Made by a program: the position numbers and the translations under genes. DNA of 28,991 nt from a virus: positions 1-28,991 of IMG/VR virus record IMGVR_UViG_3300025168_000451. One strand, written 5' to 3'. The notes beneath the pieces were generated by a model. That model did not search any database and had not been told where the DNA came from. It saw only the letters and a list, made by a program, of their open reading frames with translations. Shown piece after piece: positions 1 to 24,405 of this stretch (position 1 is the first letter of the stretch; each line of letters begins with the position of its first letter).

Positions 1-1034
1 TCTCCACCTACAAATGCTTCCTCAAAGGCAGCGCCAACCGACCCTACCAAGGCTTCATCATCATAGAGGGCGCGAGCTACTAAGCTATTCCCGAATCCCT
101 GGGCAGCCTCTTGGCGACCCTCCTCATATGCCTGCCTTGCAGCCGACCTAGCAATCGCACCAATAGACTCAGGTGCCTTGCCCTTCGCTAACTCCATAGC
201 GATATCCGCTGTAGACTTTGCCGCAGCCCTTCTGACATTTAATGCCCTGGTAACTCCCTTCCCTAGCCTTGCCATAGGCAGGGCTTCGCTTAGGCCAATG
301 GCACCCGAGGCAAGGAGACCTAACGCCTCCTTGCCAGCACCTACGTCTTCTCCCGTCTCTTCTTCGTACCTAGCAGTTTCCGAGGCGTAGCTTCCGGCGT
401 TCATAAGGGCACCAGAGAGGGCAGACGCGGCCACACCGTACCCGGAAGCAGCGAGTGCGCTCGCGCCCAATAATGGGGCGGCTCCAACGGTGGCAACGGC
501 AGGCGCTGCCATGCCAGCCAAGGTCCCTAGGCCCATGCCAACTTGCGCCCAGTTTGAATCCCGATATGCAGGATCTATTTTTAGGAGCAGGTCATTCAGT
601 TTTTTCCTGTTGTCCTTTTCAGCCTGGGTATCTTCATCTAGCGATGTGGCGGCAAGAACGGCTTGTTTTGCCAGTAGGCCCGCTTGAGCTACGCCAATGG
701 GAATTGAACGACCTAGCGTGGCGATCCCACCTAAAGCCGTGCGGCCACCAGTATCCTCAGACGTAGGTGTCGGGGCTCTGCGTGACGGGGGCACCTCATC
801 GCTAGGTGATGAAGGCTCCGGCCCCTGATAGCCCTCCTGCCAAGGAAGCACAATTCCCTGAAACGAACCCTGTCTTGCGGGAGCAGCCGGGGCTTCTTGT
901 TGTGCGGAAGCTGCGGTTGCCTCCTGAGCCAAGGCAACTTCAAGCTTCGACATGAAGGCTTCACGTTCTTCTGCCGACATGCCCTCAGGTAGAACGATCA
1001 CCCTACCGTCAGGCAAACGTATTCTCTCGCCCAT
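1..1034 (-). CDS. Large internal virion / polyvalent-type protein, N-terminal part (truncated by window edge)
   Basis: An open frame starts at the ATG at 1034 and runs without a stop through 344 codons to the left edge, so the C-terminus is missing. Residues 7-27 (LPDGRVIVLPEGMSAEE...) match the short N-terminal motif seen at the start of many large phage internal virion proteins. Residues 35-100 are Ala/Pro-rich and contain GIVLPWQEGYQG (60-71), which resembles the glycine motif of the three upstream large genes. Residues 161-211 are a long Ala/Gly-rich hydrophobic stretch that could insert in a membrane. Residues 300-314 (RQAYEEGRQEAAQGF) resemble motifs in phage polyvalent proteins. It follows the 961-aa gene after 40 bp. 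Infer an ejected virion protein; enzymatic domains, if any, lie beyond the edge. Confidence 0.8.
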   Translation of the reverse strand, partial: MGERIRLPDGRVIVLPEGMSAEEREAFMSKLEVALAQEATAASAQQEAPAAPARQGSFQGIVLPWQEGYQGPEPSSPSDEVPPSRRAPTPTSEDTGGRTALGGIATLGRSIPIGVAQAGLLAKQAVLAATSLDEDTQAEKDNRKKLNDLLLKIDPAYRDSNWAQVGMGLGTLAGMAAPAVATVGAAPLLGASALAASGYGVAASALSGALMNAGSYASETARYEEETGEDVGAGKEALGLLASGAIGLSEALPMARLGKGVTRALNVRRAAAKSTADIAMELAKGKAPESIGAIARSAARQAYEEGRQEAAQGFGNSLVARALYDDEALVGSVGAAFEEAFVGG

Positions 1035-1074: not shown

Positions 1075-3960
1075 TTACTGCGGGCGACCGTATAGAGGAT
1101 GGTCTGACGTGGCGATTCGGGACCGACCTTCCATCGGCGGCACGTCCACCGACATTGGATCTCCTTCCTCCCTTCCAATCCCCAAGATACCAGCGTTCTG
1201 GTCCCTGAAACGCCCCTGCATGCGTACTATCCTTTCGTCATTTTCCCTTACAGTTTCCTCAAGCCTGTCGCGAGCTTGCTCGAACGCTCTCATATTTTCC
1301 TCAGCAATAACAAGCCGTTGTCTCGTCCTCTGCGTGCTTTGGCGAGGGCCAAGCTCGCCAAGTTTGGCGGCTTCCGATGACCAATAGTTGTACTGAGCCG
1401 TCGCGGTATTTAGAGACTGACGATCCAATTGTCTGACCAACGCTTGTTTCATCTTGGCTTGATCCAATGTATCTACCGCATTCCCTTCATTGTCCACGGA
1501 GAAGTCGTAGTTGTTAATGCGTCTTCGTAGATGTTTAACATGGCTTTCTAGGTTAGCAACATTGCCCGGATCACTCATTTCGTCGCTAATGGAATAGAAC
1601 TCGTCATCCTCCCGCATCATCGCCATATACTGTGCACGGTCCTCTGCTGGTCTAGTGGCGGCTTCTTCTCTCTGCTTCAACTGGAATGCACCAAAGGCAT
1701 CCTGAGAAGCGAGCAGACTTCTTAGGGCCTCAGTGTTACTAGAGTTTAGAGCCGACTCTATCTGAGCCTTGAGTCTCAGGTCCACACTCTTGTTGTTAAG
1801 GAAATCTGTACCAATGGCCATGATCTCAGTGTCAGATACCTGCATGTGATCGGTAAGCGCAGTCTGGATCTCAGCCAGATTCGTACTTTCAGTGACCCGA
1901 GCAGCCTGATCGGCTGTCTCAATCCCACGCCTCGCCAGCTCCGCAGCGGCCCTAAGCGCAATCTGCGATTGCTCGCCCGAATGAATAGAATCAAACGTTG
2001 TGGTCCTATCGTCGTCGGTACCTTCTAGGATGCTACGAATAGAATCAATCGTTGTGGTCCTATCGTCGTCGGTACCTTCTTGGATGTCATGGATCGAACC
2101 AGTCGTTGTCCCTCGGTCCTCGTACATTTTCGCAAGACTATCGGCAACCTCCTTCTCCATCTTTTCTTTACCTGTCGCGAGCGTATTTTGGATCCCGAAC
2201 ACATCTGTTAGCTCGGTATTCCTGATCGTCCCTACCTTGTCTAGGACATCAGTGAAGGATTGGTTCGCGCCATAGGGATTCATCGCAAGCTCGCCCAACC
2301 CGCCAAACAAGGCAGAGTCAGCCCTTAGACTAGCAGAACGCTGTAGTGCAGCCAGTTGTGTTTCCGACAAGCCCCTCCGCTCTTCAAACAAGCCACGAGC
2401 AATGTCTCTTGCATGTGCGCTGCTTGTATCCCTCTCCTGCATAATCTGTTCAAGGTCAGCCTCCCGCACTTTCGCCCCCGCATCCCTTCTCTCCATCTCA
2501 CCCCTATACGTAGCCACCCGCTCTTTCGCCCCGGCATCTCTTCTCTCCATCTCATCCATAAGCGTAGCCCGCTGCGTTGCAAACGTGGCATCTCTTTCTC
2601 CCTCAATTGTATCGAGCCTCCCCATCTGCTCATCTGCCATCGCAGCGGCGAATCGTCTATCTCCTCTAGCTCTATTGGATTGCATTGTCGCGTCTTGTCT
2701 ACGTTGGCCCAACGTACCCTCTATCGCTGCGATGCCTCTGTCTTTTTGATCGCCTCTCTCAACCGTGACAGCATCCAACTCTCCCTGTATATCCCTAGCT
2801 CTCTTAATATCTTCTAGGGTTTTACCGTAAATGGTCCCGGCACTTGCAATCTCTCTTAACTGTTGAGTGTTCGCGTCTCGTAGTAGGGTCTCATCTGTTA
2901 TGCTCATATCACCTAGTGGGCGGCTCTCATAAGGATCACCGCTCAAAACGCTTCCCCCAACTTGAGCTACAAGATCATCTAGCGACATTGCATCTGCATC
3001 TGCATCTGCATCTGCACTAGGAGTCCTAGACAGCCCAGCCTGAAGCCCCTCTCGTGTCTCTAGGTCAGGTCTATTGACGGTCTGCGTGGCAGGTGTTCCT
3101 ACCCTGTCGAGGGCGTCGGCGTAGTCAGTTTCCTGAATGACACTTGGCACCTCTATCAGGTCAGAAGCGAGAACTGTACCCTGCCCCTGGGGGAGACCCC
3201 TTTGCCTGTCCCTATTGTTGTACGTATTCAAACTGCTCTGATCGTACAAACCTGCCTCAACTCCCGCTTGGGACATTATCCCCTCGTCCCAATCGTCCTG
3301 GAGTTTTTGTACATTGACGCGCCTCGTGGCCGTAGGCGCTGGCTTCCAATTAGGATGTGGTGTCTCAGTTTCTAGGTGCATTTTGACGCCATTAACAACG
3401 CCGACACCATGAGCATGCATGTCTGGCACGTTTGTAGTACCGATCATACCACCTACATGGTACCCAGGGATTAGCCCTCCTCCAGCCATCATAGCCCTCG
3501 CAGGAACCTCCTCACGAGACGACCTAGCAAACGCTTCAGGGCTGAGATCAGGAGCATCCGGATTGCTTTCAATCCACGATTCGTAGGTTTGCTCACCACC
3601 CGGAGTTGGTCCCCCGGCGATACCACTCTGAAGGGCAGCCGTTTCCTCGGGCGTTAGCTGCTGATCTGCGCTTGGGTCTACCCCGACAACGCCGCGATCC
3701 TTGAGGGTCGCTTCTAGGATGGTCACAGGAGCCTCCTCAACGGGAACGCCCTGCATCTTAGCTAGCTCTTCTTGCTCTTCTTGCTGTTCCTTAGCTTTAA
3801 ACGCAGCAGTTAGGGCCTCCTCTTCTTTTATTCTCGTTAGAGCAAAGATAGGAGAAATACCCTGGGGCAGATATTCCCCCATGGCAGCTTTATTTAACTC
3901 ATCCGGTCCCATTTTCCGGACTATGTCAAACTGTGCTCCGGGCATCATTGGAAAGGCCAT
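1075..3960 (-). CDS. Large repeat-rich helical structural protein, probable internal virion protein (961 aa)
   Basis: No family with a known function is recognised. The start ATG at 3960 is preceded by AGGAG ten bases upstream. Residues 40-70 are a Glu/Lys/Gln helix. Residues 159-171 hold the motif AGGGLIPGYHVGG, shared with neighbouring large proteins. Residues 318-326 are a short Ala-Asp repeat. From roughly residue 380 to 560 the protein is highly charged and helical, with five clear 18-residue repeats at 452-541 (EMERRDAGAK units). A second 18-residue array lies at 615-668 (DRTTTIDSI type). The rest is mostly helical with a Met/Pro-rich tail. Length, helical content and position after the tail genes suggest an internal or ejection protein like the large core proteins of T7-type phages. 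This role is inferred from context, not homology. Confidence 0.82.
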   Translation of the reverse strand: MAFPMMPGAQFDIVRKMGPDELNKAAMGEYLPQGISPIFALTRIKEEEALTAAFKAKEQQEEQEELAKMQGVPVEEAPVTILEATLKDRGVVGVDPSADQQLTPEETAALQSGIAGGPTPGGEQTYESWIESNPDAPDLSPEAFARSSREEVPARAMMAGGGLIPGYHVGGMIGTTNVPDMHAHGVGVVNGVKMHLETETPHPNWKPAPTATRRVNVQKLQDDWDEGIMSQAGVEAGLYDQSSLNTYNNRDRQRGLPQGQGTVLASDLIEVPSVIQETDYADALDRVGTPATQTVNRPDLETREGLQAGLSRTPSADADADADAMSLDDLVAQVGGSVLSGDPYESRPLGDMSITDETLLRDANTQQLREIASAGTIYGKTLEDIKRARDIQGELDAVTVERGDQKDRGIAAIEGTLGQRRQDATMQSNRARGDRRFAAAMADEQMGRLDTIEGERDATFATQRATLMDEMERRDAGAKERVATYRGEMERRDAGAKVREADLEQIMQERDTSSAHARDIARGLFEERRGLSETQLAALQRSASLRADSALFGGLGELAMNPYGANQSFTDVLDKVGTIRNTELTDVFGIQNTLATGKEKMEKEVADSLAKMYEDRGTTTGSIHDIQEGTDDDRTTTIDSIRSILEGTDDDRTTTFDSIHSGEQSQIALRAAAELARRGIETADQAARVTESTNLAEIQTALTDHMQVSDTEIMAIGTDFLNNKSVDLRLKAQIESALNSSNTEALRSLLASQDAFGAFQLKQREEAATRPAEDRAQYMAMMREDDEFYSISDEMSDPGNVANLESHVKHLRRRINNYDFSVDNEGNAVDTLDQAKMKQALVRQLDRQSLNTATAQYNYWSSEAAKLGELGPRQSTQRTRQRLVIAEENMRAFEQARDRLEETVRENDERIVRMQGRFRDQNAGILGIGREEGDPMSVDVPPMEGRSRIATSDHPLYGRPQ
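1957..2118 (-). repeat. 54-bp tandem repeat, about three units, within the 961-aa gene
   Basis: The DNA copies starting at 1983 and 2037 are almost identical for about 50 bases with a period of exactly 54; a third is diverged. It encodes 18-residue units (residues 615-668) with DRTTT.DSI at the start and EGTDD at the end. The two close copies differ by only a few bases, which implies recent duplication or conversion. Confidence 0.8.
2338..2607 (-). repeat. 54-bp tandem repeat, five units, within the 961-aa gene
   Basis: Residues 452-541 divide into five 18-residue units: IEGERD..., EMERRDAGAKER..., EMERRDAGAKVR..., IMQERD..., LFEERRG.... The two middle copies (starting at 2471 and 2525 on the plus strand) are nearly identical. 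Weak units may extend the array towards residue 380. Eighteen residues is five helical turns, consistent with a long rod. Confidence 0.8.
2989..3016. repeat. Hexanucleotide microsatellite (CATCTG)n
   Basis: Four perfect CATCTG units plus partial flanks encode an Ala-Asp run (residues about 315-325) in the 961-aa protein. In-frame hexamers could gain or lose units without breaking the gene. Confidence 0.8.
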
Positions 3961-4002
3961 TTATCTACAACTCCTAAAATTAACTATCTGACAGCCTACT
4001 GA

Positions 4003-5805
4003 TCATTCTACTGGGGGAACTACTGGTCCAGTCGGTACCGCCCCCTGATTCCTATTCATCCATTGCTTATAGGCGGCCAAGCCTTTGGCACCGAGTCCCA
4101 TCAGATTACTGGCAGCGCCAACCTCAGGATTATAAGACGCTTGCGTTACCGTGCTCTGATACGGCAGGGCTCCTAGCTGCGAGTTCATCCAAGCAGCCTG
4201 TTGCATATCGTACTGCTGCTGCTGCTCATGCTGTGCTCTCTGGTAGTCTAGGCCTGATTGACTTAGCTGACGCTGGCCTTGTCCTGCCCGGTTCATTGCA
4301 TCTAGCCGTTGCAGTTGCTGGGTCTGCTGATTCGCGCCCAAGGCCATCTGCTGTCCGCCAATATTAGCCAACTGAGAGTAGGCCCCTGCTTCTCTACCCA
4401 TGGCACCCTGCTGTCCTTGCAACATGTCTCCAGTGGTGCTGAATCCTTGAGTAGCAGCTTGTTGTGCTGCTTGTAAGCCCTGTAACCCTTGTTGAGTGCC
4501 CTGATTAGCAGCCTGGTAGCCTTGCTGCTGCCCTTGCATGTCGAACTGGGTACCCTGCGTAGCAGCGGCCCGTTGATCCTGTAGGCCCTGCATGCCCATT
4601 CCGATACCAGCTTGCTGCGCCGACAACATCTGCCCCTGAGCACCTGCTTGGCTTGCAGCCGCTTGCTGCTCTGCGCTAAGACCAAGCTGCTGACCTGCTG
4701 CCACACGACGAGCATCTTCCTGCTCACGCGAAATAGCACTCTGAAACGCATCCTGTTGTCCTTGTCCGATGATACTAGCAGCCTGTTGTGCGGCATCCTG
4801 TGCCTGCTGCCCCGCCATAATGCCTTGTCTGTACCCACCAAACGCGCCAGCACCGGCAGCCTGTGACCCCAACTCTTGGCCCTGTTGCTTCTGAAACTCT
4901 ATCAATTGCTGCAACTGAGGATCAGTAACATTCTCGGTGTACTGAGACATATATCCAGACATGTCTGCTGACTTGCCTAGCTCAGGTCCAGTTTCACCTA
5001 TAGCACGCATGCGTCCCGCAGCGGTTGCTGCCTGATCTTGGATTCCTTGACCAAGTTCAGCCATTTGTGCTTGACCCGCTTGGCCAGCCTCCATTTGTGC
5101 TTGGCCCAAGGCGCCTTGCTGTACCTGCGCTGCTGCTCCAGTCTGACGCATGCCAGAACCTGCCAACTGACCCTGCATTTCGGCTCGACCAGCTAGGTTC
5201 TGCATACCTTGGGCACTTGCTTGCCCTTGGTCCATGGCAGTTGAGGCCAAGTTGCCATATTGTGTCGCCGCAGCTTGGTAGCCTGGGATCATACTACCAG
5301 TTCCCTGTGCAGCAGCATTCAATGTAGACTGAGCCTGTTGGGTGCCCTGTGGCCCTGCGCCTGTCCCGTAAGCACCATAGCCAGCCTGTGCAGCAGCTTC
5401 CATGCCCGTGAACCCGGCAACCCCTGGACCAAACTGCTTAAGAGGGGCCTCACCGGCCTTCATGATCTTGTCTTTGACTTGGCCAAACTGTGAAGCGACT
5501 GCAGGGTTTAATTGCTCTGACCGCACATTAAGCTGAGTGGACTGGCCGTAGCCCGCTGGCGCGGTGGCACCGCCCTCTTGGAAACCAATGACTCCACCCC
5601 TAGCTCTACGTAGGAGCCCTCCACGAACAAGTTTAGCAGCAACACTGCTAGGAACCCCTCGTGCCATCAACCTCGCTAGGTCAGAACTATCTTTTGTGGG
5701 AGTGTGTGCTTGGCCCTTCTTCGATAGCCCCATTATCCCAATCCCACCACCGGAGCGGTAGCGTCGTCTACGCATATTGCCCACCATAAGTCCCAGGTAA
5801 AACAT
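4003..5805 (-). CDS. Gln/Gly/Ala-rich structural protein, probable internal virion protein (600 aa)
   Basis: The protein has a basic N-terminus (RRRRYRSGGG) resembling the N-terminus of the upstream 1265-aa protein. It carries the shared motif RGGVIGFQEGG at residues 69-79, then a very Gln/Ala/Gly-rich helical body. The segment around GYMSQYTENVTDPQLQ and GAGAFGGYRQG resembles a recurrent family in aquatic phage late modules that alternates short Q/A helices with a GAFGG[YS]RQ signature. The annotated start overlaps the previous gene by 38 bp. ATGs at 5787 and 5775 are alternatives, and 5775 (8-bp overlap) gives the MRRRRYRSGGG start. No start has a strong ribosome site. A virion-internal or tail-hub role is inferred from gene order only. 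Confidence 0.82.
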   Translation of the reverse strand: MFYLGLMVGNMRRRRYRSGGGIGIMGLSKKGQAHTPTKDSSDLARLMARGVPSSVAAKLVRGGLLRRARGGVIGFQEGGATAPAGYGQSTQLNVRSEQLNPAVASQFGQVKDKIMKAGEAPLKQFGPGVAGFTGMEAAAQAGYGAYGTGAGPQGTQQAQSTLNAAAQGTGSMIPGYQAAATQYGNLASTAMDQGQASAQGMQNLAGRAEMQGQLAGSGMRQTGAAAQVQQGALGQAQMEAGQAGQAQMAELGQGIQDQAATAAGRMRAIGETGPELGKSADMSGYMSQYTENVTDPQLQQLIEFQKQQGQELGSQAAGAGAFGGYRQGIMAGQQAQDAAQQAASIIGQGQQDAFQSAISREQEDARRVAAGQQLGLSAEQQAAASQAGAQGQMLSAQQAGIGMGMQGLQDQRAAATQGTQFDMQGQQQGYQAANQGTQQGLQGLQAAQQAATQGFSTTGDMLQGQQGAMGREAGAYSQLANIGGQQMALGANQQTQQLQRLDAMNRAGQGQRQLSQSGLDYQRAQHEQQQQYDMQQAAWMNSQLGALPYQSTVTQASYNPEVGAASNLMGLGAKGLAAYKQWMNRNQGAVPTGPVVPPVE

Positions 5806-8800
5806 CTGATAAATCGACAGGAGGGGGTTGGTCCAGCATCCCCGTCCTCTGCATCCTCACATCATCTTGCAACTGGTCCAGTACACCTGCCCCACGCTCA
5901 GTATTCCCACTGCCTAAGCCACTAACTACATCGGCAGCAATAACGAATTCACCGGAGCCAATCGCCACATCTTGTTCATATGGCATTCCTTCGTCAGCTG
6001 TCACGATGATATCGTCTGCCATTCCGTCTCCGTTTCCGGGTACTAGGCCACCACCCTGCATCTGTGGAGGCATCTGTGGAGGCATTGGCGGAGGCTGCAT
6101 CTGCGGAGGACCCATCTGCGGAGGCATTGGTGGACCCATCTGCGGAGGCATCTGTGGAGACGCCTGTGGAGGCATCTGTGGAGACCCTTCTGGAGACTCC
6201 TGTGACTGAATGATCTCTACAAGTTGATCAAACTCTTCTGGACTAATGACCTCCGGTACAAACGCATCCTTGAATGCCATAGTAGTTTCGGAGTCTCCGG
6301 CTACAACAGCACTGGCAAATGCATCCATAACCTCGTCTGGTATCCCACGATCATCGCCACCTTCTGGGATCACCCCACCCTCAGCCCTACCCGTGGGTAG
6401 ATAACTTTGGATCGCCGTTGGCTGATTCATGCGATTCAACATGGCCGCCGCACCCGGATTGCCAGCCTGTGCAAACTGGCCCGCTGTTGTTGGCATCGCG
6501 TTAGGATTGAATCCGCCAGCAAATGGTGAGGCCGGAGGAGGAGTAGGGGCGGCTGCCGCTGCCTTGGCCGCTGCTGCTGCTGCCGCTGCCGCCTTATCTG
6601 CTGCGGCCTTATCTGCTGCCGCCTTATCTGCTGCAGCCTTCTCTGCCGCCTTGGCCGCTGCTGCTGCCTTTTTTCTGGCTGCTGCAGCTGCGTTGGCTGC
6701 TTCTGGCGAAGGCTTGTTCTCATCTTTCGGGAGAGGGGCAACGACGCTGGAAGGCTTGTAGTCAGCATCACGCCGCTCCTCCGGAACCGCGTTCCTGTTC
6801 TCAATAATGTCTGGGACATCGTCCTCAAACTGCTCGTCTCCCAAGAACCTCCAGTCCTTTATGTTGCCTTCGTCGTCGTAGGGATCCTCAGTCGATCCCG
6901 GCACGGGCGGTCCTGTTACAGACGGTTGGCGATAAGGGCTTACGTATTCCTCTGGATCCTCTTCGGTACGGGGCCTGTTCATACGAGCAATGATGTCTTT
7001 TCTCCTTTGCTCATCTGAAACATTGGAATCCGGAGTAGCCTTAGGCTTAGGCTTAGGCTTAGGAGCAGCGGCCACCGTATTCGGAACAAACTCCTCCATG
7101 CCTCCTAGCTCCCCAAACTCGTCCTCGTCGTCAAAGCTCATGTCACGCGGCATCACTGGCGCTGGCCTTGCCGGAACCGGAGCCACCGGCCTAGGAGGAG
7201 CAAGCGTTACTGGAGGTAGTCCGACCCCATCTGTGATCTCAAACTCACCTTCCATATCACCGCCCATCGGAGGTCTTGGCATAGGCGGAGGAGCTACAGG
7301 TGCGGGCATAGGCGGAGGAGCTACAGGTGCAGCAGCTATCGTATCTGGAATAAAATCTCCGATACCATCCATGCCCGGAGGCGGACTCATGTCCTGCACG
7401 GGTGGCTGAGAGACCTGCGGTGCTGGAGCAGGAATCTTTGGCGGGTACAACCTACGCATCTCAGCCGCATCCTCAGCCCTGATACGTGCCTCTTCGTCCG
7501 GATCTGGCAGACGATATCGAAGACGCTCTTCGGCGGTAAGACGCCTACGCTTTTTTGCATCCGGACGAGACTTAGCCTTGGGTTTAGCCTTGGATTTAGC
7601 CTTGGGCCTAGATCTAGGCTTGGGCCTAGACCGCCGAGGTCGATCAAGCTCATCCCCAATCATCATGTCATCATATTCACCACCCTCCTGATAACCGGGA
7701 ACTAAGCCTCCTCCGAAATGACGGCTTGCGTACAGTCCTCCTGTCGCACCCTGAGGAAGGAACGCGCTCTGCGAGTTCCAATCCAGCCCACCCGATGGGG
7801 CATTAGGATCAGCGGCTCTTCGTTGGGCCGGTCCCGAAACTTGTACGGACTGAGTAGGGCCGCTTTGGAAACCAGCTTCTCGCTGCTCTAGGCCACCAAC
7901 GATTGGCATAGCCGCTGCAAGGAGTCCTTCTGCCCCCTGCAGTCCCTTACCTGCAGCCTTTGCTTTCGCCAAGAAGCCCGACAGCCCCTTGCCACCCTCC
8001 GCTGCGCCCTTAGCCCAACCCGCCGATGCACCCTGGACACCCTTTCTGCCTACGGCAGACATTATCCCTGTCTTGAGCCCATGCGTCAGTGAGTCGCCCC
8101 ACGACCCAGCATTAAGGGTTTCCCACTCGCCAGTCTGAGGGTTCCTTGTCATCTTACCCATTTTCTTGTCCAACATCCCAGCAATGCCACCTATGGCACC
8201 TGCAGCCACAGGACCGATGCCTGGAATGAACATGGCCGCTACTGGAGCAACCTTTAGGACAGGCCTTAGGATGTTACGCCTAAGCCAACCACCAAAGCCA
8301 TAAGCTGGGATATACTGTCCATTAACGAGCACCATCGGCACTTCGCCACCGCCAGCTAGGCCATAGGGCATCATACCACCACCTCGCAGCCCTACGATAC
8401 CACCATTCTGATAACCCGGAATCAAGCCACCACCAGCCATTGGTTCGATGCTCATCTTCCAACTGGTTGGGGCTCCACTTGCGCCACCAGAGGCTTCATT
8501 CGTAGGAGTAGGCGGGGCTTGTGCAGGCGTTTGTACAGGCGGTTGCCCAAATGCGGAGGGCTGCGTTGGCGGCGCGTTTAACGCCGCTTGCTGCGCCTGC
8601 GTAGATGCCGCATTGGACATGCCGAAGTCCCGCGCAGGGCCATCGAATACGGAAGCCGTATTACTTAGGTTCATCATGGGCAGCTGCGGCCCACTAGCCA
8701 GCATCTGCTGCGGCGGACGAGGCGCATTAGCAAAGGACGGTGGAGGAGGCGAAGTCGGTTGTGCGTAGCCTGGCCCTCCTACAGGAGTAGGGGTTGAATC

Positions 8801-9565
8801 CATAAACGGCAGATCGGGTCGCGGTTTCATTGTCCGCGCACGTTCCATCATCTGCTGTTCCATCAGATTATCCCGCTGCATCTCCTCCTGCGTAGGTGCT
8901 CGCTGTCCGAACCCCAACCCGGAATTGTTCTGAGAAGGTGGCTGTGCCGTCCTAAATGTTTGCAGTAACGCTTTCTCTTCCGGTGAGCGCATCGACTGCC
9001 CTATCGCCGGATTAGCTCGTTGCTGCTCATTCTCTTTAGACATCTGTGCTTGCAATGTCTCGTACTCAGACTGCATCTGCGGCGTAATTGACTGTTGAGC
9101 TTGCTGTCGCCGCATCTGCAGCTGCTGCTGCATCTGCTGCTGCTGCTGCGGCGTGGACGACATCTGCTGTGTCTGCCGTTGCCCTCGTCCTATCTGAGCC
9201 TGCGTCAAGCCATATGTGTTTGACGATGAAGGAGCCTGCATTCCCTGCTGTGGCTGACCGTAAGGCAGGTCTTGCAGAGGGGGAAGTGAAGACAGGTACG
9301 GATTTGTCCACTCCTGTTGCCCCATCGACTGCATCTGTTGCGGCTGCATCTGCTGCATCTGCTGCATCCGTTGCAACTGCTGTGGCGCTCTAGGCGTGAC
9401 ACCTGAAGCAATGCCTTGCTGCCACATACTATTACCAGATGAAGCAGGCGGAGCCATATCCATAAACTGACTCTGCTGGGTCCGCTGCCTCTGCAACTGC
9501 TGGGGCGTCATCTGAACCCCGCCACCATGCCGGAATCGGCGGCTACCATAGTTTCCGATTGACAT
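5768..9565 (-). CDS. Giant low-complexity virion protein with conserved C-terminal motif (1265 aa)
   Basis: This is the largest gene in the window. In order it shows: a Gln/Met-rich region (20-180); the motif MAGGGLIPGYQNGG (376-389); a hydrophobic Gly/Ala/Pro stretch (about 429-462) that could enter a membrane; a second motif copy GGGLVPGYQEGG (618-629); a strongly basic Arg/Lys/Pro/Ser tract (642-676); Pro-rich acidic linkers; an Ala/Lys tract with AADK repeats (about 954-1009); Pro/Met/Gln repeats (about 1132-1170); and a conserved-looking C-terminus with DGMADDI (1180-1186) and SGEFVIAADVVSGLG (1204-1218). The latter matches a block I know from many marine phage late proteins, usually as SDGEFVxPADVVSxLG. 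Its specific role is unknown. Likely a structural protein that contacts DNA or membrane, by inference from composition. Confidence 0.85.
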   Translation of the reverse strand: MSIGNYGSRRFRHGGGVQMTPQQLQRQRTQQSQFMDMAPPASSGNSMWQQGIASGVTPRAPQQLQRMQQMQQMQPQQMQSMGQQEWTNPYLSSLPPLQDLPYGQPQQGMQAPSSSNTYGLTQAQIGRGQRQTQQMSSTPQQQQQMQQQLQMRRQQAQQSITPQMQSEYETLQAQMSKENEQQRANPAIGQSMRSPEEKALLQTFRTAQPPSQNNSGLGFGQRAPTQEEMQRDNLMEQQMMERARTMKPRPDLPFMDSTPTPVGGPGYAQPTSPPPPSFANAPRPPQQMLASGPQLPMMNLSNTASVFDGPARDFGMSNAASTQAQQAALNAPPTQPSAFGQPPVQTPAQAPPTPTNEASGGASGAPTSWKMSIEPMAGGGLIPGYQNGGIVGLRGGGMMPYGLAGGGEVPMVLVNGQYIPAYGFGGWLRRNILRPVLKVAPVAAMFIPGIGPVAAGAIGGIAGMLDKKMGKMTRNPQTGEWETLNAGSWGDSLTHGLKTGIMSAVGRKGVQGASAGWAKGAAEGGKGLSGFLAKAKAAGKGLQGAEGLLAAAMPIVGGLEQREAGFQSGPTQSVQVSGPAQRRAADPNAPSGGLDWNSQSAFLPQGATGGLYASRHFGGGLVPGYQEGGEYDDMMIGDELDRPRRSRPKPRSRPKAKSKAKPKAKSRPDAKKRRRLTAEERLRYRLPDPDEEARIRAEDAAEMRRLYPPKIPAPAPQVSQPPVQDMSPPPGMDGIGDFIPDTIAAAPVAPPPMPAPVAPPPMPRPPMGGDMEGEFEITDGVGLPPVTLAPPRPVAPVPARPAPVMPRDMSFDDEDEFGELGGMEEFVPNTVAAAPKPKPKPKATPDSNVSDEQRRKDIIARMNRPRTEEDPEEYVSPYRQPSVTGPPVPGSTEDPYDDEGNIKDWRFLGDEQFEDDVPDIIENRNAVPEERRDADYKPSSVVAPLPKDENKPSPEAANAAAAARKKAAAAAKAAEKAAADKAAADKAAADKAAAAAAAAAKAAAAAPTPPPASPFAGGFNPNAMPTTAGQFAQAGNPGAAAMLNRMNQPTAIQSYLPTGRAEGGVIPEGGDDRGIPDEVMDAFASAVVAGDSETTMAFKDAFVPEVISPEEFDQLVEIIQSQESPEGSPQMPPQASPQMPPQMGPPMPPQMGPPQMQPPPMPPQMPPQMQGGGLVPGNGDGMADDIIVTADEGMPYEQDVAIGSGEFVIAADVVSGLGSGNTERGAGVLDQLQDDVRMQRTGMLDQPPPVDLSDVLPGTYGGQYA
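6541..6700 (-). repeat. Ala/Lys low-complexity tract with AADK repeats in the 1265-aa gene
   Basis: Imperfect 15-bp repeats (GCTGCGGCCTTATCT type on the plus strand, about 6598-6645) lie within a GC-rich Ala-coding stretch and encode KAAAD units flanked by poly-Ala. Such tracts form extended or helical linkers and are prone to slippage. Confidence 0.7.
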
Positions 9566-10578: not shown

Positions 10579-12957
10579 TTATCGTCTGCCGTCTGTTCTA
10601 CCGTCTAGCCTTACAGGTCCAACGCGCCAGCCGTATCCGGCACCAGTGCTTTCTACCTTCATAGAGACCTGCCTAGCCCTGCCACGAATAAATGCTTGGT
10701 CTGTGCTTGATGTGACCGAGGCGCTTGCTATTTGCGACTGTGCCTCCGCAGGGAAGTTGTGTCCATTCAGACTAATCGTCACTGCATCATCAGAACCCCC
10801 GCCCCTAAACTGGATATCTGGTATGATCCTGTTTAGTGCCCAGAACTGATCGCCGTCACCAAGTTCGATGTCGCCTGTCTCAATGTAGGCTGTCATTGCT
10901 GACCCATCATCGTCATGGCCATTTTCGTGACTGTACAAGTAGTTCGGGTACACCGCTATGACCGTGTCTCCACCACCTGTAGCGGCAGTCGCCGTATCCG
11001 CAATCGTAATCGTGTAAGTGTCAGGATTGGTGATTGACACAACAGTATGTTCGTCATTCAAGACTACTGTAGACAAACCACCCACCGTAGACACATTACT
11101 AAAGATGACCTTATCGCCAGCCACCAACCCGTGATTCGTATCAGTAACACTTACGTTTTCTGTCGCATCGGTAGTAGTAGTCATCGGGTTGCTGCCGAAG
11201 GACTTATTCCGGATTGACGATGCCTGCGGATACTCCACTGTATTCGCAGAATTCCAAGCCCCACGTACTAGCGTTCCAGTGTACCAGATCTTCTCGCCAT
11301 AGTTATAAATGACATACTTGTCATTCTCTCCGTTTCCAGAAGCTGATGGATAGATCCAGATAACTTCAGAGAAGTCTGCGTTAGATCCACAAACAACTTT
11401 ATGCGATTGCCCTAAATCAAAATCATCAAACACAGTGCCAAGAACTGGGCAAGTAATTTTTTGGGCTGTGCCGGTGTATTGATAAAAAGCCCCGCGATCC
11501 ATAAAGAACACAGTGCCATCCGCGTTTACCGCCGCATTGGGCGAGATAAGAGACATCCCCTTCGACGCCTCCGTAAACGAGAAGTAAAAAGGGCTGCCTA
11601 CGTACCTCATGGATACAATGCCGTTGTCGGTCCAGATTAGGGTTTCCTGGCGTGTTGTCAGGGCACCAATGATCTCAGAACCAGAGGATAGCTCTTGGCC
11701 ACCCGCGCTATTAGTGGATAGTGGCTGCCATTCAGCGGCATTTTCTGAGTTAGACCATCTTACAAATAATGGGTTGATGGTTGTCGAGCCGATGGGATTG
11801 CAGCCAATCGCGATAACGTGACGCGCCACATCCGACATCATTACCTGAGTGCTCGCCGTTGGCGTGTAGAAGATGCCAGCCGTGTATACAACGGATACGC
11901 CCGTACCGCCGCCAGTCGCCGTGCTTGAAGCGTTAGCACCACCGAGATCGGCAGTCCAAGTAGTCTTGGTGGGAGTTGAGGCTACCGTTACCGCGACGTT
12001 TATACGGGCAGCTGTGATCCCGCCTACCGCAGCAGATCCGGTCAGCGTGACCGTATCCCCAACCCCTGCCCCGTGACCACCCTTGTCAGTGATCGTAATA
12101 ATCGTAGAGCCACTAGCCGTCACAACAGGATTAGCGCCGAGCGTTATTGACCTACGTGTTATACCACTGAGAGGTACCGCCCGGTCTGCGGTGCCCACGC
12201 TTTCGTCCCAGTAGTAAATGTTACCCTGACGGACATTGGCGATCATGTCATCACCAAAGTTTACTATCGACCACAAGCGCAACTGATTAGCCTGGCTTAG
12301 GCCTGCGCCTGACCCCCACGTGCCTGACCCCCAAGTATCCGATCCCCAGCCAGCCGCAGAAACATAAGTATCAAGGCCACTATTTATTTGGAAGGTCGCA
12401 ACCACACTCGCGCCTCCACCACTTGCGCTGGACGTGGCCTGTGCGTCACACACAACTCGGAATTTAGTTGTGGGGTCCGCATTATCCGGGTCACCCAACG
12501 CCACAATCCGATGTTCTGTATTGAGGGAACCAGTACCTATCCCAGCAGTAGCTGTTGCACCAGCAAGCGTCACATAGTCCCCAGTAACCGCACCATGTGC
12601 GGCGGTTGTGTCTATCGTAACAACCGCCGTCTCATCGACCGCTGCGATCTTGTTTGTACCAAGCGTAACCGTGCTACGGATCGGGGTTATGTCATAATAA
12701 TTATTACCCAGAGACACATACAACTTGAGGTTGGTGCCAAGCCCAACATACTTGCTTCCAGAGTCAGTAACCCAGTCATGCAAGTACCTAGCGGTGCCAG
12801 AGAAGGTAGCTAGGATGAATTTTACCCAGCCACCAATTTTCTCAGCGAAGCCCTTACGAAATCGCACCTTGTCAGAATCATACCAAGTACCCTGTGCTGA
12901 GTACCTAGTACCGTCTGTAAAGACCCCTGACTTTGGAGCGATCTTGGTAAAGGGCAT
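10579..12957 (-). CDS. Large tail protein, P22 gp10-like stabilisation type (792 aa)
   Basis: The N-terminus (GTWYDSDKVRFRKGFAEKIGGW, residues 23-44) carries the WxDSDxVRFRxGxxEKIGGW signature of large tail/stabilisation proteins in short-tailed aquatic phages. The core has repeated aromatic beta-strand blocks such as LRLWSIVNFGDDMIA (227-241), FVRWSNSENAAEW (398-410), LIWTDNGIVSMRYVG (440-454) and VIWIYPSASGNG, which suggests a propeller-like fold. Three insertions with a common pattern lie at residues 98-192, 272-361 and 587-673. In P22, gp10 sits below gp4 and closes the tail channel; a similar place here is inferred. It follows the 100-aa gene after 5 bp, with a G-rich stretch as ribosome site. 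Confidence 0.85.
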   Translation of the reverse strand: MPFTKIAPKSGVFTDGTRYSAQGTWYDSDKVRFRKGFAEKIGGWVKFILATFSGTARYLHDWVTDSGSKYVGLGTNLKLYVSLGNNYYDITPIRSTVTLGTNKIAAVDETAVVTIDTTAAHGAVTGDYVTLAGATATAGIGTGSLNTEHRIVALGDPDNADPTTKFRVVCDAQATSSASGGGASVVATFQINSGLDTYVSAAGWGSDTWGSGTWGSGAGLSQANQLRLWSIVNFGDDMIANVRQGNIYYWDESVGTADRAVPLSGITRRSITLGANPVVTASGSTIITITDKGGHGAGVGDTVTLTGSAAVGGITAARINVAVTVASTPTKTTWTADLGGANASSTATGGGTGVSVVYTAGIFYTPTASTQVMMSDVARHVIAIGCNPIGSTTINPLFVRWSNSENAAEWQPLSTNSAGGQELSSGSEIIGALTTRQETLIWTDNGIVSMRYVGSPFYFSFTEASKGMSLISPNAAVNADGTVFFMDRGAFYQYTGTAQKITCPVLGTVFDDFDLGQSHKVVCGSNADFSEVIWIYPSASGNGENDKYVIYNYGEKIWYTGTLVRGAWNSANTVEYPQASSIRNKSFGSNPMTTTTDATENVSVTDTNHGLVAGDKVIFSNVSTVGGLSTVVLNDEHTVVSITNPDTYTITIADTATAATGGGDTVIAVYPNYLYSHENGHDDDGSAMTAYIETGDIELGDGDQFWALNRIIPDIQFRGGGSDDAVTISLNGHNFPAEAQSQIASASVTSSTDQAFIRGRARQVSMKVESTGAGYGWRVGPVRLDGRTDGRR

Positions 12958-17537: not shown

Positions 17538-17815
17538 TACATTCTCTCCACAGAATTAGCTAAATCGTTGTGTCCAGCTACGCGCAGTAAGTTAACGACA
17601 CGTGAGCGATCTTCGTTGATCGCCTCGTACATATAGTATGCCGCAGCCTTGTGAATAAACTCCTTAAACTCTAGCGCCTGCTCCGCTATTAACGGGTGAG
17701 CATCTGCCCCAACGCTAACAATGTGATCAGCGGCCCTTCTCGCCCAGTGCTCCGGGCCAAGTGTTGTGTCGTTGCTTGTTGCAACGCTAACCGTGCCCAC
17801 ATCAGCATTAAACAT
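17537..17815 (-). CDS. Small helical conserved phage protein (92 aa)
   Basis: Mostly alpha-helical with PEHWARRAADHIVSVG, LIAEQALEFKEFIHKAAAYYM, EDRSRVVNLLRVAGHNDLAN. The pattern WAxRAAxxIxxVxxxAxPxIxEQAxxFx...YYxxxAxxxDRxxxxxxLxxAGHxDLA is a recognisable small phage family that lies beside the connector adaptor gene. Function unknown; an assembly or connector accessory role is inferred. It overlaps both neighbours by one base (TGATG at the start, TAATG at the end), so it sits inside a coupled block of connector genes. Confidence 0.82.
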   Translation of the reverse strand: MFNADVGTVSVATSNDTTLGPEHWARRAADHIVSVGADAHPLIAEQALEFKEFIHKAAAYYMYEAINEDRSRVVNLLRVAGHNDLANSVERM

Positions 17816-18447
17816 CAGTTGACAGCCATACTTATCGTTCCGTCTCTGTACTCATCAACAGTCATGCGGCCCTCTGCCTGCAGCTTCAGGAGGTCCAGTG
17901 CTTCCTGGTACCTCTGCTGATACAACTGCATCACATCTGCGTCACCCTTCATGTATGTGTACGCCTCGACTAGGGAGCCATAAAGCAAGACCGTATCGGC
18001 ATTTGTCCCTAGCCACGAGGTACTAGAATCGACAATTGAAGCTGGCTGATAGTAGTAATGAAGCTCTGTGACAAAATCTGCGTTAGGCGTTGGCCCAAGA
18101 ATGAATGTGTCACTAGTGAACATGCCGTAATACTTAGGCACCCCTTCGGTAGACGCATTGGGATAGGTAGCCCTAATAAAGTTTGCGTCTTTGTTTAACA
18201 AAAAGATTTGGTTGCTAGAACTTGTTAAGGACAACGACAACGGCAATAAAAAATCCGTTGGAACCTCTAGGTATTTATTCCCATCAGTTATGGTACCAGC
18301 GACGTTTTTACGATTCACAGGCAAGTTCACAGAGCGATAGATACGTTGTTCGGCTTGCTTGATAAACGTGTCAATCGAAGCTACGAAACTAGTGCCTGTG
18401 TTGTTGCAGTAATCCTTGATGGCCGCAGTTAATTCAGCATAGGTCAT
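17815..18447 (-). CDS. Head-tail adaptor protein, SU10 gp7-like (210 aa)
   Basis: The N-terminus (MTYAELTAAIKDYCNNTGTSF, then FIKQAEQRIYRSVNLPVNRK) is the helical signature of phage adaptor proteins of the SU10 gp7 type, which form a ring under the portal in podoviruses. Middle blocks (YLEVPTDFLLPLSLSL, GVPKYYGMF, LGPTPNADFVTELHYYYQP) and the C-terminal helices (LLYGSLVEAYTYMKGDADVMQLYQQRYQEAL) fit the whole family length of about 200-215 residues. It overlaps the 111-aa gene by four bases (ATGA) and the 92-aa gene by one base. Confidence 0.85.
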   Translation of the reverse strand: MTYAELTAAIKDYCNNTGTSFVASIDTFIKQAEQRIYRSVNLPVNRKNVAGTITDGNKYLEVPTDFLLPLSLSLTSSSNQIFLLNKDANFIRATYPNASTEGVPKYYGMFTSDTFILGPTPNADFVTELHYYYQPASIVDSSTSWLGTNADTVLLYGSLVEAYTYMKGDADVMQLYQQRYQEALDLLKLQAEGRMTVDEYRDGTISMAVN

Positions 18448-18779
18448 GTCGTCACCGTCACCCTGCCTACTGAGCCAGTAGCAGTCAGATTTCCAGAAGT
18501 GTTTGCATTTCCACTCCCAACAGGGTCAAAGGCAAACAGCCTCCTGCTTTGGTCCTGTGATGTATCTGGCCTAGCGTCTCTCAATGCTTCCGGGTCAGCA
18601 TACGTTCCCAGCCTACCCAAGAAGTTCTGTGGCTGATCTTCATCTAACATGTCCTTGCCGACCATGAGTCCCGTCATGCGTCCAGCTTTAACCTGCGGTA
18701 CAAGATCCCTTAGCCTGTACCTGAATCCAGTTCGGTCACAAAAACCAAAAGCATATTTACCATTAGCAATATGAGACAT
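18444..18779 (-). CDS. Connector-region structural protein (111 aa)
   Basis: Contains YAFGFCDRTGFRYRLRDL, a Gly/Met segment (GRMTGLMVGKDMLDEDQPQN), and DPEALRDARPDTSQ. The order CDRxGFRYxxxxL ... DPQALRxxRPD is a recurrent small family between the gp4-like and adaptor genes of aquatic podoviruses; the single Cys followed by DRxG hints at a decayed metal knuckle, but a full Cys set is missing. The tail is Gly/Thr/Val-rich. Role unknown; a minor connector or tail piece is inferred. It overlaps the 225-aa gene by one base and the adaptor gene by four bases. Confidence 0.78.
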   Translation of the reverse strand: MSHIANGKYAFGFCDRTGFRYRLRDLVPQVKAGRMTGLMVGKDMLDEDQPQNFLGRLGTYADPEALRDARPDTSQDQSRRLFAFDPVGSGNANTSGNLTATGSVGRVTVTT

Positions 18780-19456
18780 TAGGAATACCCTCCAGGCACA
18801 AAATGAACAGAAGACTTATCACGATCTTCCTGTTGTGCTAGATCCCACTGAAACTCGTATTCTGCCTTTAGTTCTACTGAGCGCACAAACGATTCCGGGT
18901 ATTTTTGTGAAATGTAAAACGCTAACCCCGACACCAATGCAGGTAGAAAGCGAGCCGGAATATCAGAAGTCGTAGAACCTACCGAGCCCGTATCTTGTAT
19001 ACGTCTTATCCGTTGATAAACAAACGTGTAAATCTTGTCTGGCGCTGGCCACAGGTACACGACTGGGGCATCGCGCTGCTTGTCGATGAACAAGTTTACA
19101 GGCCTTCCCTCAGTGAGCTTATTCGGAATTGTCGAATATTGAGACACACTAATCCGAGAGATTGGCAGGTCACTTTGCGACGTACCGACTCCATCCCGAA
19201 TCCAATGCTCGACAAGATCAATCGTGTCAGCTGGTAGTGTAAGCGAAGGGGTGCTTGCAACAGTGCTCGCCGTACCCTGCTCTACGCACCAGAAATTAAG
19301 ACCACGATTTGCCCACTCAATGCTCAAGAGATTAAGCGACCTGCGAGCCGTTTCGATGTCATACCCAGTCTTCGACTGAAGACCACATCGCTCAAACGCC
19401 TCTTCAATAACCTCTGATATCTCAAGGTCAAATGTGGCAGTTCCCGAAGTAGTCAT
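18779..19456 (-). CDS. Head completion / packaged-DNA stabilisation protein, P22 gp4-like (225 aa)
   Basis: The helical N-terminus ISEVIEEAFERCGLQSKTGYD followed by TARRSLNLLSIEWANRGLNFW is the signature of gp4-type tail accessory factors in short-tailed phages, which bind the portal after packaging and close the channel. Beta blocks (STPSLTLPADTIDLVEHW, RPVNLFIDKQRDAPVVYLWP, FVYQRIRRIQDTGS) and a C-terminal helical segment (ARFLPALVSGLAFYISQKYPE) complete the family pattern. The start has AGGTGA six bases upstream. Position between capsid genes and the adaptor is as expected for this role. Confidence 0.85.
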   Translation of the reverse strand: MTTSGTATFDLEISEVIEEAFERCGLQSKTGYDIETARRSLNLLSIEWANRGLNFWCVEQGTASTVASTPSLTLPADTIDLVEHWIRDGVGTSQSDLPISRISVSQYSTIPNKLTEGRPVNLFIDKQRDAPVVYLWPAPDKIYTFVYQRIRRIQDTGSVGSTTSDIPARFLPALVSGLAFYISQKYPESFVRSVELKAEYEFQWDLAQQEDRDKSSVHFVPGGYS

Positions 19457-23970: not shown

Positions 23971-24405
23971 TCAAGCCCTCTCTAAGCCTCTAGGGTCATC
24001 AACAATTGCTTCAACGGTATCATCATTAATCAATCGAAACTCTTTACCATGAATCTTAATTCTTGTGCCACTGAAGGCCCGGAATACTACCCAATCTCCT
24101 ACTTCACAGTACGGCCCGCTAGGAAATCTGCCGTAATTGACATAGGCATCAGGACCCATCGACATCACCCAGCCCACAACAGTTGCAATGGACTCCTCTC
24201 GCTGGGACTCAGAGGACTTGATGATACCACCTTCAGTCGCTTCCTCGACTTCAGGCAGGGCGATTAAAAGCTTATAGCCCTTGGGTACAGGCAGCTGCGA
24301 TGCGTAGTTGCGTGCCGAACCCTTGTCTTCCAAGGACTCACGGCCCTTGTCAGTGATCGTAATAATCTCATCCAATACATCAACATCACTTGCGAGTGTA
24401 GCCAT
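23971..24405 (-). CDS. Phage-encoded GroES-like co-chaperonin (Cpn10 fold)
   Basis: After a divergent 40-residue N-terminal extension, residues 41-136 follow the Cpn10 layout: PKGYKLLIALPEVEEATEGG, with GGIIKSSESQ at 59-68 in place of the GroES mobile loop (GGIVL), then a strand (ATVVGWVMSMG), a shortened roof hairpin region (RFPSGPY, 93-99), VGDWVVFRAFSGTRIKIHG (102-120) and EFRLINDDTVEAIVDD. In T4, the analogous gp31 replaces host GroES so that GroEL can fold the capsid protein; the same role for the capsid or another virion protein here is inferred. Its place between portal and scaffold fits. GAGAGG precedes the ATG. Confidence 0.87.
   Translation of the reverse strand: MATLASDVDVLDEIITITDKGRESLEDKGSARNYASQLPVPKGYKLLIALPEVEEATEGGIIKSSESQREESIATVVGWVMSMGPDAYVNYGRFPSGPYCEVGDWVVFRAFSGTRIKIHGKEFRLINDDTVEAIVDDPRGLERA

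Follow-up and report, generated by a model that had tools for sequence, protein, structure and literature searches.

The nearest described counterparts of the genes analysed here are the podoviral ejection or internal virion proteins (phrog_4287, internal virion protein D and DNA transfer protein), which have the same position after the nozzle gene and the same order. Tape-measure proteins (PHROG tape-measure families and Pfam Tape_meas_lam_C, PF09718) are also close: they are most of the annotated carriers of the glycine motif described below, among the matches listed, and the 1265-aa protein of our window has a tape-measure-like C-terminal domain. They differ in that the window phage looks short-tailed, that the 1265-aa protein has no family match, and that the motif in the window also occurs in two neighbouring genes. 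How a podophage virion gathers several ejection proteins that are unrelated to one another is poorly understood, as is the role of the unstructured parts of tape-measure proteins.

Encapsulin cargo is docked to the interior of a shell of the HK97 fold by cargo-loading peptides, which are short and hydrophobic and lie in flexible, Gly-rich linkers. The phage motif is like them by analogy, as a short hydrophobic tag in a Gly-rich linker, and possibly works in the same way; unlike those terminal peptides, the phage copies are internal, multiple and also found in tape-measure proteins. The capsid-targeting or prohead-protease sequence of the T4 type is N-terminal and always has Glu at its cleavage site, whereas the phage motif is internal and its Glu is not invariant. 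Tape-measure and ejection proteins are known, but the literature searched, which covered a minority of subscription journals, yielded no tag common to adjacent ejection genes. A text search of a review of ejection proteins (PMC8954989) returned nothing on a common glycine motif, and the strings GGIVAF, GGLIPGY, GGYSDGG, GGMVPGY and GGIVALA were unprinted in the PMC literature searched, most subscription papers and bioRxiv preprints lying outside its scope.

Results

Gene content of the window

The window (the whole stretch of DNA that was analysed) is an entire IMG/VR virus contig of 28,991-bp, a fragment whose annotated late genes lie on the minus strand. These encode a terminase, a portal, a GroES-like protein, a Mu gpT-like major capsid protein, adaptors, a tail fibre with an S74 chaperone and a nozzle-type protein, followed by the motif genes (Table 1). 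The portal is ~42% identical to the portals of pelagiphages HTVC023P and HTVC027P, Roseobacter phages CRP-901/902 and phage DSL-LC04; HTVC023P-type phages are described as Podoviridae (PMC9599517). The nozzle-type protein matches chain Y of PDB entry 9NWI, from Pseudomonas phage Pa223 (PMC13299392), with an E-value of 2e-12. Judged by this protein, the ejection genes and the podovirus relatives, the window phage is probably short-tailed and of a marine type. Amid the head genes lies a GroES-like co-chaperonin gene (23971-24405), which several relatives also have, and two nearby genes (17815-18447 and 18779-19456) match the SU10 adaptor family, an apparent duplication of the head-tail adaptor.

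Past the nozzle gene, the relatives encode a protein with a tape-measure-like C-terminus, a phrog_4287-type protein, a third protein and a large DNA-transfer protein, and this order is the same in HTVC023P, HTVC027P, CRP-902, DSL-LC04 and MinM2 (phrog_4287 itself is present in DSL-LC04 and HTVC027P). The 1265-, 600-, 961- and partial 344-aa genes of the window fill these four slots and make up a putative podoviral ejection-protein module, whose products are thought to enter the host with the DNA. The 600- and 1265-aa genes overlap by 38 bases. Clear orthologs of both proteins are encoded by a 52.7 kb relative, G001, where the third protein is weakly similar. Direct homology searches gave no match for the 600-aa protein and matched only the C-terminal domain of the 1265-aa protein, for which PHROG and Pfam gave 0 and 0 family matches; curated tape-measure families were matched by relatives of this protein only, via the C-terminus. 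That domain is of the GPGTxxSDSIPAxLSxGE[FY]V type found in tape-measure proteins, and a similar one occurs in TMP-like proteins of podophages, often with GGI..LGGYSDGG 22 residues upstream of SDSIP...GEFVV. The 961-aa protein (1075-3960) contains the internal repeats DADADADADA and EGTDDDRTTT[IF]DSI.

Motif copies

Translation upheld the central observation of the first-pass annotation: the 961-, 600- and 1265-aa proteins have a glycine motif in common, which can be written GG-hydrophobic-hydrophobic-(P)-G-[YF]-x-x-GG. All copies are on the minus strand and the four main ones are exact. Two further copies, GGIVGLRGGG and GGMMPYGLAGGG, follow directly after the first copy of the 1265-aa protein; they were absent from that annotation, and some columns are invariant in their region when the orthologs are aligned. 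The left-edge gene had been credited with an instance, GIVLPWQEGYQG, which has no GG pair and is therefore not one. As for the degenerate forms proposed near the C-terminus of the 1265-aa protein, GGVIPEGG stands as a degenerate copy, at which the aligned relatives do not keep a full motif, whereas GGGLVPGNG opens an element of another kind, the tape-measure-type C-terminal domain GxGDGMxDxI...GE[FY]VV. The description of the proteins as otherwise unrelated holds for the 961- and 1265-aa pair, whose best BLASTP alignment is the motif itself (MAGGGLIPGY), but the 600- and 1265-aa proteins align best through a common N-terminal RR[YF]R-GGG string.

The N-terminal strings of the 600- and 1265-aa proteins are similarly basic, aromatic and glycine-containing (RRRRYRSGGG and SRRFRHGGG; 5743-5775 and 9518-9544); their counterparts are EYQGGG and RYRNGGG in relatives and MFRKGG or RHFKEGG in other phages, and they are perhaps half of the glycine motif.

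Table 1. Ejection-module genes, motif copies and neighbouring elements in the window
Feature	Position	Strand	Evidence
Nozzle/stabilisation-type protein, 792-aa; no motif; upstream edge of module	10579..12957	-	phrog_3287; PDB 9NWI chain Y
Putative tape-measure-like ejection-module protein, 1265-aa	5768..9565	-	synteny with annotated phages; C-terminal domain; ortholog
Protein in slot of phrog_4287 'DNA ejection protein', 600-aa	4003..5805	-	synteny; GAFGG.R.G string; ortholog E 1e-57
Putative third ejection-module protein, 961-aa	1075..3960	-	position; weak similarity to G001 641-aa protein
Start of DNA-transfer-type protein, cut by contig end; no motif	3..1034	-	position; N-terminus like G001 2731-aa protein
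Tape-measure-type C-terminal domain GGGLVPGNGDGMADDI...GEFVIAADVVSGLGSGN, 1265-aa protein	5846..6055	-	homology; alignment
Motif copy AGGGLIPGYHVGG, core GGLIPGYHVGG (3448-3480), 961-aa protein residues 159-171	3448..3486 with preceding AG	-	translation; shuffles
Motif copy GGVIGFQEGG, 600-aa protein residues 70-79	5569..5598	-	translation; shuffles; aligned relatives
Motif copy GGLIPGYQNGG, 1265-aa protein residues 379-389	8399..8431	-	translation; shuffles
Motif copy GGLVPGYQEGG, 1265-aa protein residues 619-629	7679..7711	-	translation; shuffles
Tandem extra copies GGIVGLRGGG (8375-8404) and GGMMPYGLAGGG (8345-8380), 1265-aa protein	8345..8404	-	translation
Degenerate copy GGVIPEGG, 1265-aa protein	6356..6379	-	translation
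Hydrophobic segment FIPGIGPVAAGAIGGIAG between two motif clusters, 1265-aa protein	8156..8293	-	ortholog alignment; low-confidence helices in model

Tests against chance

Strict matches were expected ~0.0003 or fewer times per protein in shuffles that preserved GG and GGG, against 1, 1 and 2 observed in the 961-, 600- and 1265-aa proteins, and other proteins of the window with several GG pairs gave zero motif matches. Because the regular expression was written after these copies had been seen, the real proof is the test on an independent sample. In 80 viral contigs fetched by alignment of the motif-free nozzle protein, the strict motif occurred 19 times downstream of the nozzle (0.46 expected) and 0 times upstream (0.51 expected), and the loose motif 58 times downstream (16.7 expected) and 4 times upstream (21.9 expected). 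Some of these contigs are related, so that the counts are not fully independent, and the strict pattern already drew on relatives inspected earlier. The nozzle proteins of this sample had no motif match. Shuffling in 40-residue blocks (downstream expectation 0.93 strict and 25.2 loose) and a mirror-pattern control (2 strict and 25 loose matches downstream) agreed with the main test. Among relatives selected by portal, the loose motif was found 14 times in the module against 4.9 expected and 3 times elsewhere against 11, with one G001 module gene scored as elsewhere. A DNA pattern for GGhhPG[YF]xxGG, among the matches listed, fell in the frame of the longest ORF in 81/88 viral matches as compared to 24/81 matches in cellular genomes, where it was mostly off-frame.

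The motif is real, linked to the ejection module across divergent phages and conserved at the protein level. Its linkage to the virion gene neighbourhood is strongly supported by the nozzle-seeded contigs, the shuffle and mirror controls and the portal-selected relatives; neither equal frequency in unrelated Gly-rich proteins nor a loss of the neighbourhood linkage, the two outcomes named as refuting in the first-pass annotation, was seen in the frame test, the nozzle-seeded and portal-selected counts and the mirror and local-shuffle controls. That the motif is a chance or low-complexity artefact of Gly-rich proteins is extremely improbable: Gly, Ala and Gln are indeed abundant in the module proteins, but the shuffle, local-shuffle and mirror controls, the cellular frame test and a residue preference outside the pattern (below) all contradict it.

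Conservation among relatives

In the third protein, the motif still aligned in 3-4 syntenic relatives, where the flanks diverge and hardly align. The ortholog alignment of the 1265-aa protein had 17/28 invariant columns in the motif and 18/192 elsewhere; its copy at 7679..7711 kept GG..P.[YF]..GG in 5/5 aligned relatives, and the context TSWKMSIEPMA plus motif of the copy at 8399..8431 is common to L163 and L167. At the aligned site of the 600-aa protein, relatives have GGIIGFQAGG, GGVIGFQAGG or GGVIRGYQQGG. Two or three adjacent genes carry the motif in G001, G035, G051 and G037. Proteins with the motif have one to several copies of it. Among cultured phages, DSL-LC04 has GGIASLAKGG and a variant, GGIVQRFQEGS. 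A motif-free model of the N-terminus of the third protein retrieved 15 further proteins, most of them with GG[IL][VIT]x[FLY] at residues 97-170. The motif is partly position-locked, at ~residue 100-165 in the third protein and just before the C-terminal domain in the tape-measure-like protein. The gene order does not require it, because the canonical form is absent from the distant portal relatives CRP-902, Caulobacter RW, MinM2 and HTVC023P.

A peptidoglycan-hydrolase domain stands shortly after the third-protein motif in L403:16150-18249 (FlgJ-like) and L239:6355-8286 (PHROG endolysin type), which suggests that this protein is a predicted virion-associated lysozyme in both. A motif-only scan of IMG/VR found annotated carriers that were mostly tape-measure proteins, some with lytic domains, among the matches listed. 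A nearly identical PVERM(S/T) string follows the motif in tape-measure-like proteins of L401, L402, L405, L410 and L415. Outside the ejection module, a 75-aa protein of DSL-LC04 (L367:1315-1542), whose gene sits between the cement and adaptor genes, ends with the motif-like GGGMMKGYKMGG plus SACK.

AlphaFold2 models of two motif regions had mean pLDDT values of 42 and 58 (~33-55 in the motif stretches), which are perhaps low from shallow alignments (5 and 8 sequences). A PDB search with a motif-centred alignment and relatives of the module proteins returned no structure covering the motif.

Sequence specificity

At position -2 from the first GG, which the search pattern leaves free, Ala was found in 58/82 instances from the nozzle-seeded loci and the relatives of the window, as compared to 14% at other GG pairs of the nozzle-seeded proteins. 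Homologous positions and some motif-selected contigs are part of this set, so the p-value is not literal, but the effect is large. The residue ahead of this Ala is often M, Y or F, and Q/A followed by G/E/N/D predominate in the two positions ahead of the second GG. The rough consensus is [MYF]-A-x-G-G-[ILV]-[VIT]-[AGP]-[FYL]-[QA]-[EDNG]-G-G, with a PG variant in the clade of the window and in tape-measure proteins, and there are two main flavours, GGhVPGYxxGG and AxGGIVAFxxGG. The copies of the 961- and 1265-aa proteins share 9 identical residues and 2 identical codons. Since their codons differ, selection acts on the protein, and a recent duplication of the motif DNA was rejected.

Discussion

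Our main reading, to which we assign a probability of about 0.45, is that the string is a short linear motif by which ejection or tape-measure proteins dock as the virion is assembled. The copies are short, specific, repeated, common to neighbouring proteins and placed in divergent linkers, which argues for a motif of this class. It would act in linkers of podophage ejection-module and tape-measure proteins, which presumably exit the virion together with the DNA, and in these linkers the flanking glycine pairs may serve as hinges that free the hydrophobic core and the aromatic residue. The core could then dock into a common groove, belonging either to a virion component or to the partner ejection proteins, and docking would collect otherwise unrelated, mostly flexible proteins and hold them in the ejection apparatus until release. 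When the first-pass annotation offered a docking or capsid-entry signal, the docking half was the better choice; entry into the capsid alone would leave out the tape-measure proteins of long-tailed phages, which carry the motif and are not capsid contents. Long-tailed phages may use the motif differently. A single groove is not proven, because the VPGY and IVAF flavours coexist in one phage. A match of flavour within one phage was also considered as proof of a common receptor and rejected: the change of P to R in two G001 proteins is suggestive only, and since flavours also mix inside one phage such a match is insufficient.

The main rival to docking is a structural spacer or turn derived from tape-measure C-terminal regions, which would sit where domains join and have no binding partner of its own. 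The fixed distance often kept between GGI..LGGYSDGG and the SDSIP...GEFVV domain, the prevalence of tape-measure proteins among the annotated carriers listed, and the motif shortly ahead of the hydrolase domain in L403 and L239 all agree with it; the side-chain specificity (Ala at -2, the aromatic residue, Q/A) exceeds the needs of a flexible spacer, many copies adjoin no recognisable domain, and the models give no confident structure. We regard a spacer as unlikely, though worth serious weight. A membrane-active element, whose hydrophobic core would insert into host membranes in the manner of a fusion loop once ejected and aid a DNA conduit, seems rather unlikely to us. In its favour, podophage ejection proteins and tape-measure proteins are both believed to function within the cell envelope, T5 engages membranes by a hydrophobic hairpin tip and by hydrophobic segments of its tape-measure protein (PMC10038345), and two motif clusters flank a hydrophobic segment in the 1265-aa protein. 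Against this, the core is four to five residues long with acidic or polar residues often ahead of the second GG, membrane-like segments occur in only 12/60 motif proteins, and in one weak test of the membrane-active role raised initially the motifs were not enriched near such segments (5 motifs nearby against 4.2 expected).

A processing site for a virion maturation protease, also proposed at first, is very unlikely. Tape-measure proteins of lambda and T5 are cleaved, the T5 cut falling after R1127 with a hydrophobic stretch on one side and the muralytic domain on the other (PMC10038345), and the motif sometimes marks a domain boundary; the residues ahead of the second GG vary, however, copies are internal and in tandem, and a Pfam search of the head genes on this partial contig gave no protease.

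Docking, our main reading, could extend to a widespread tailed-phage code for sorting and docking in which the two-flavour motif recruits unrelated ejection and tape-measure proteins via a common groove. Such a code is doubtful at present; if it exists, a phage could swap ejection proteins and keep just the tag. The docking question reduces to mutating ~ten residues, and if docking is wrong, the mutants bear on the membrane, spacer and protease alternatives. Across divergent phages, the motif is a handle for annotating 'hypothetical' ejection genes from sequence alone.
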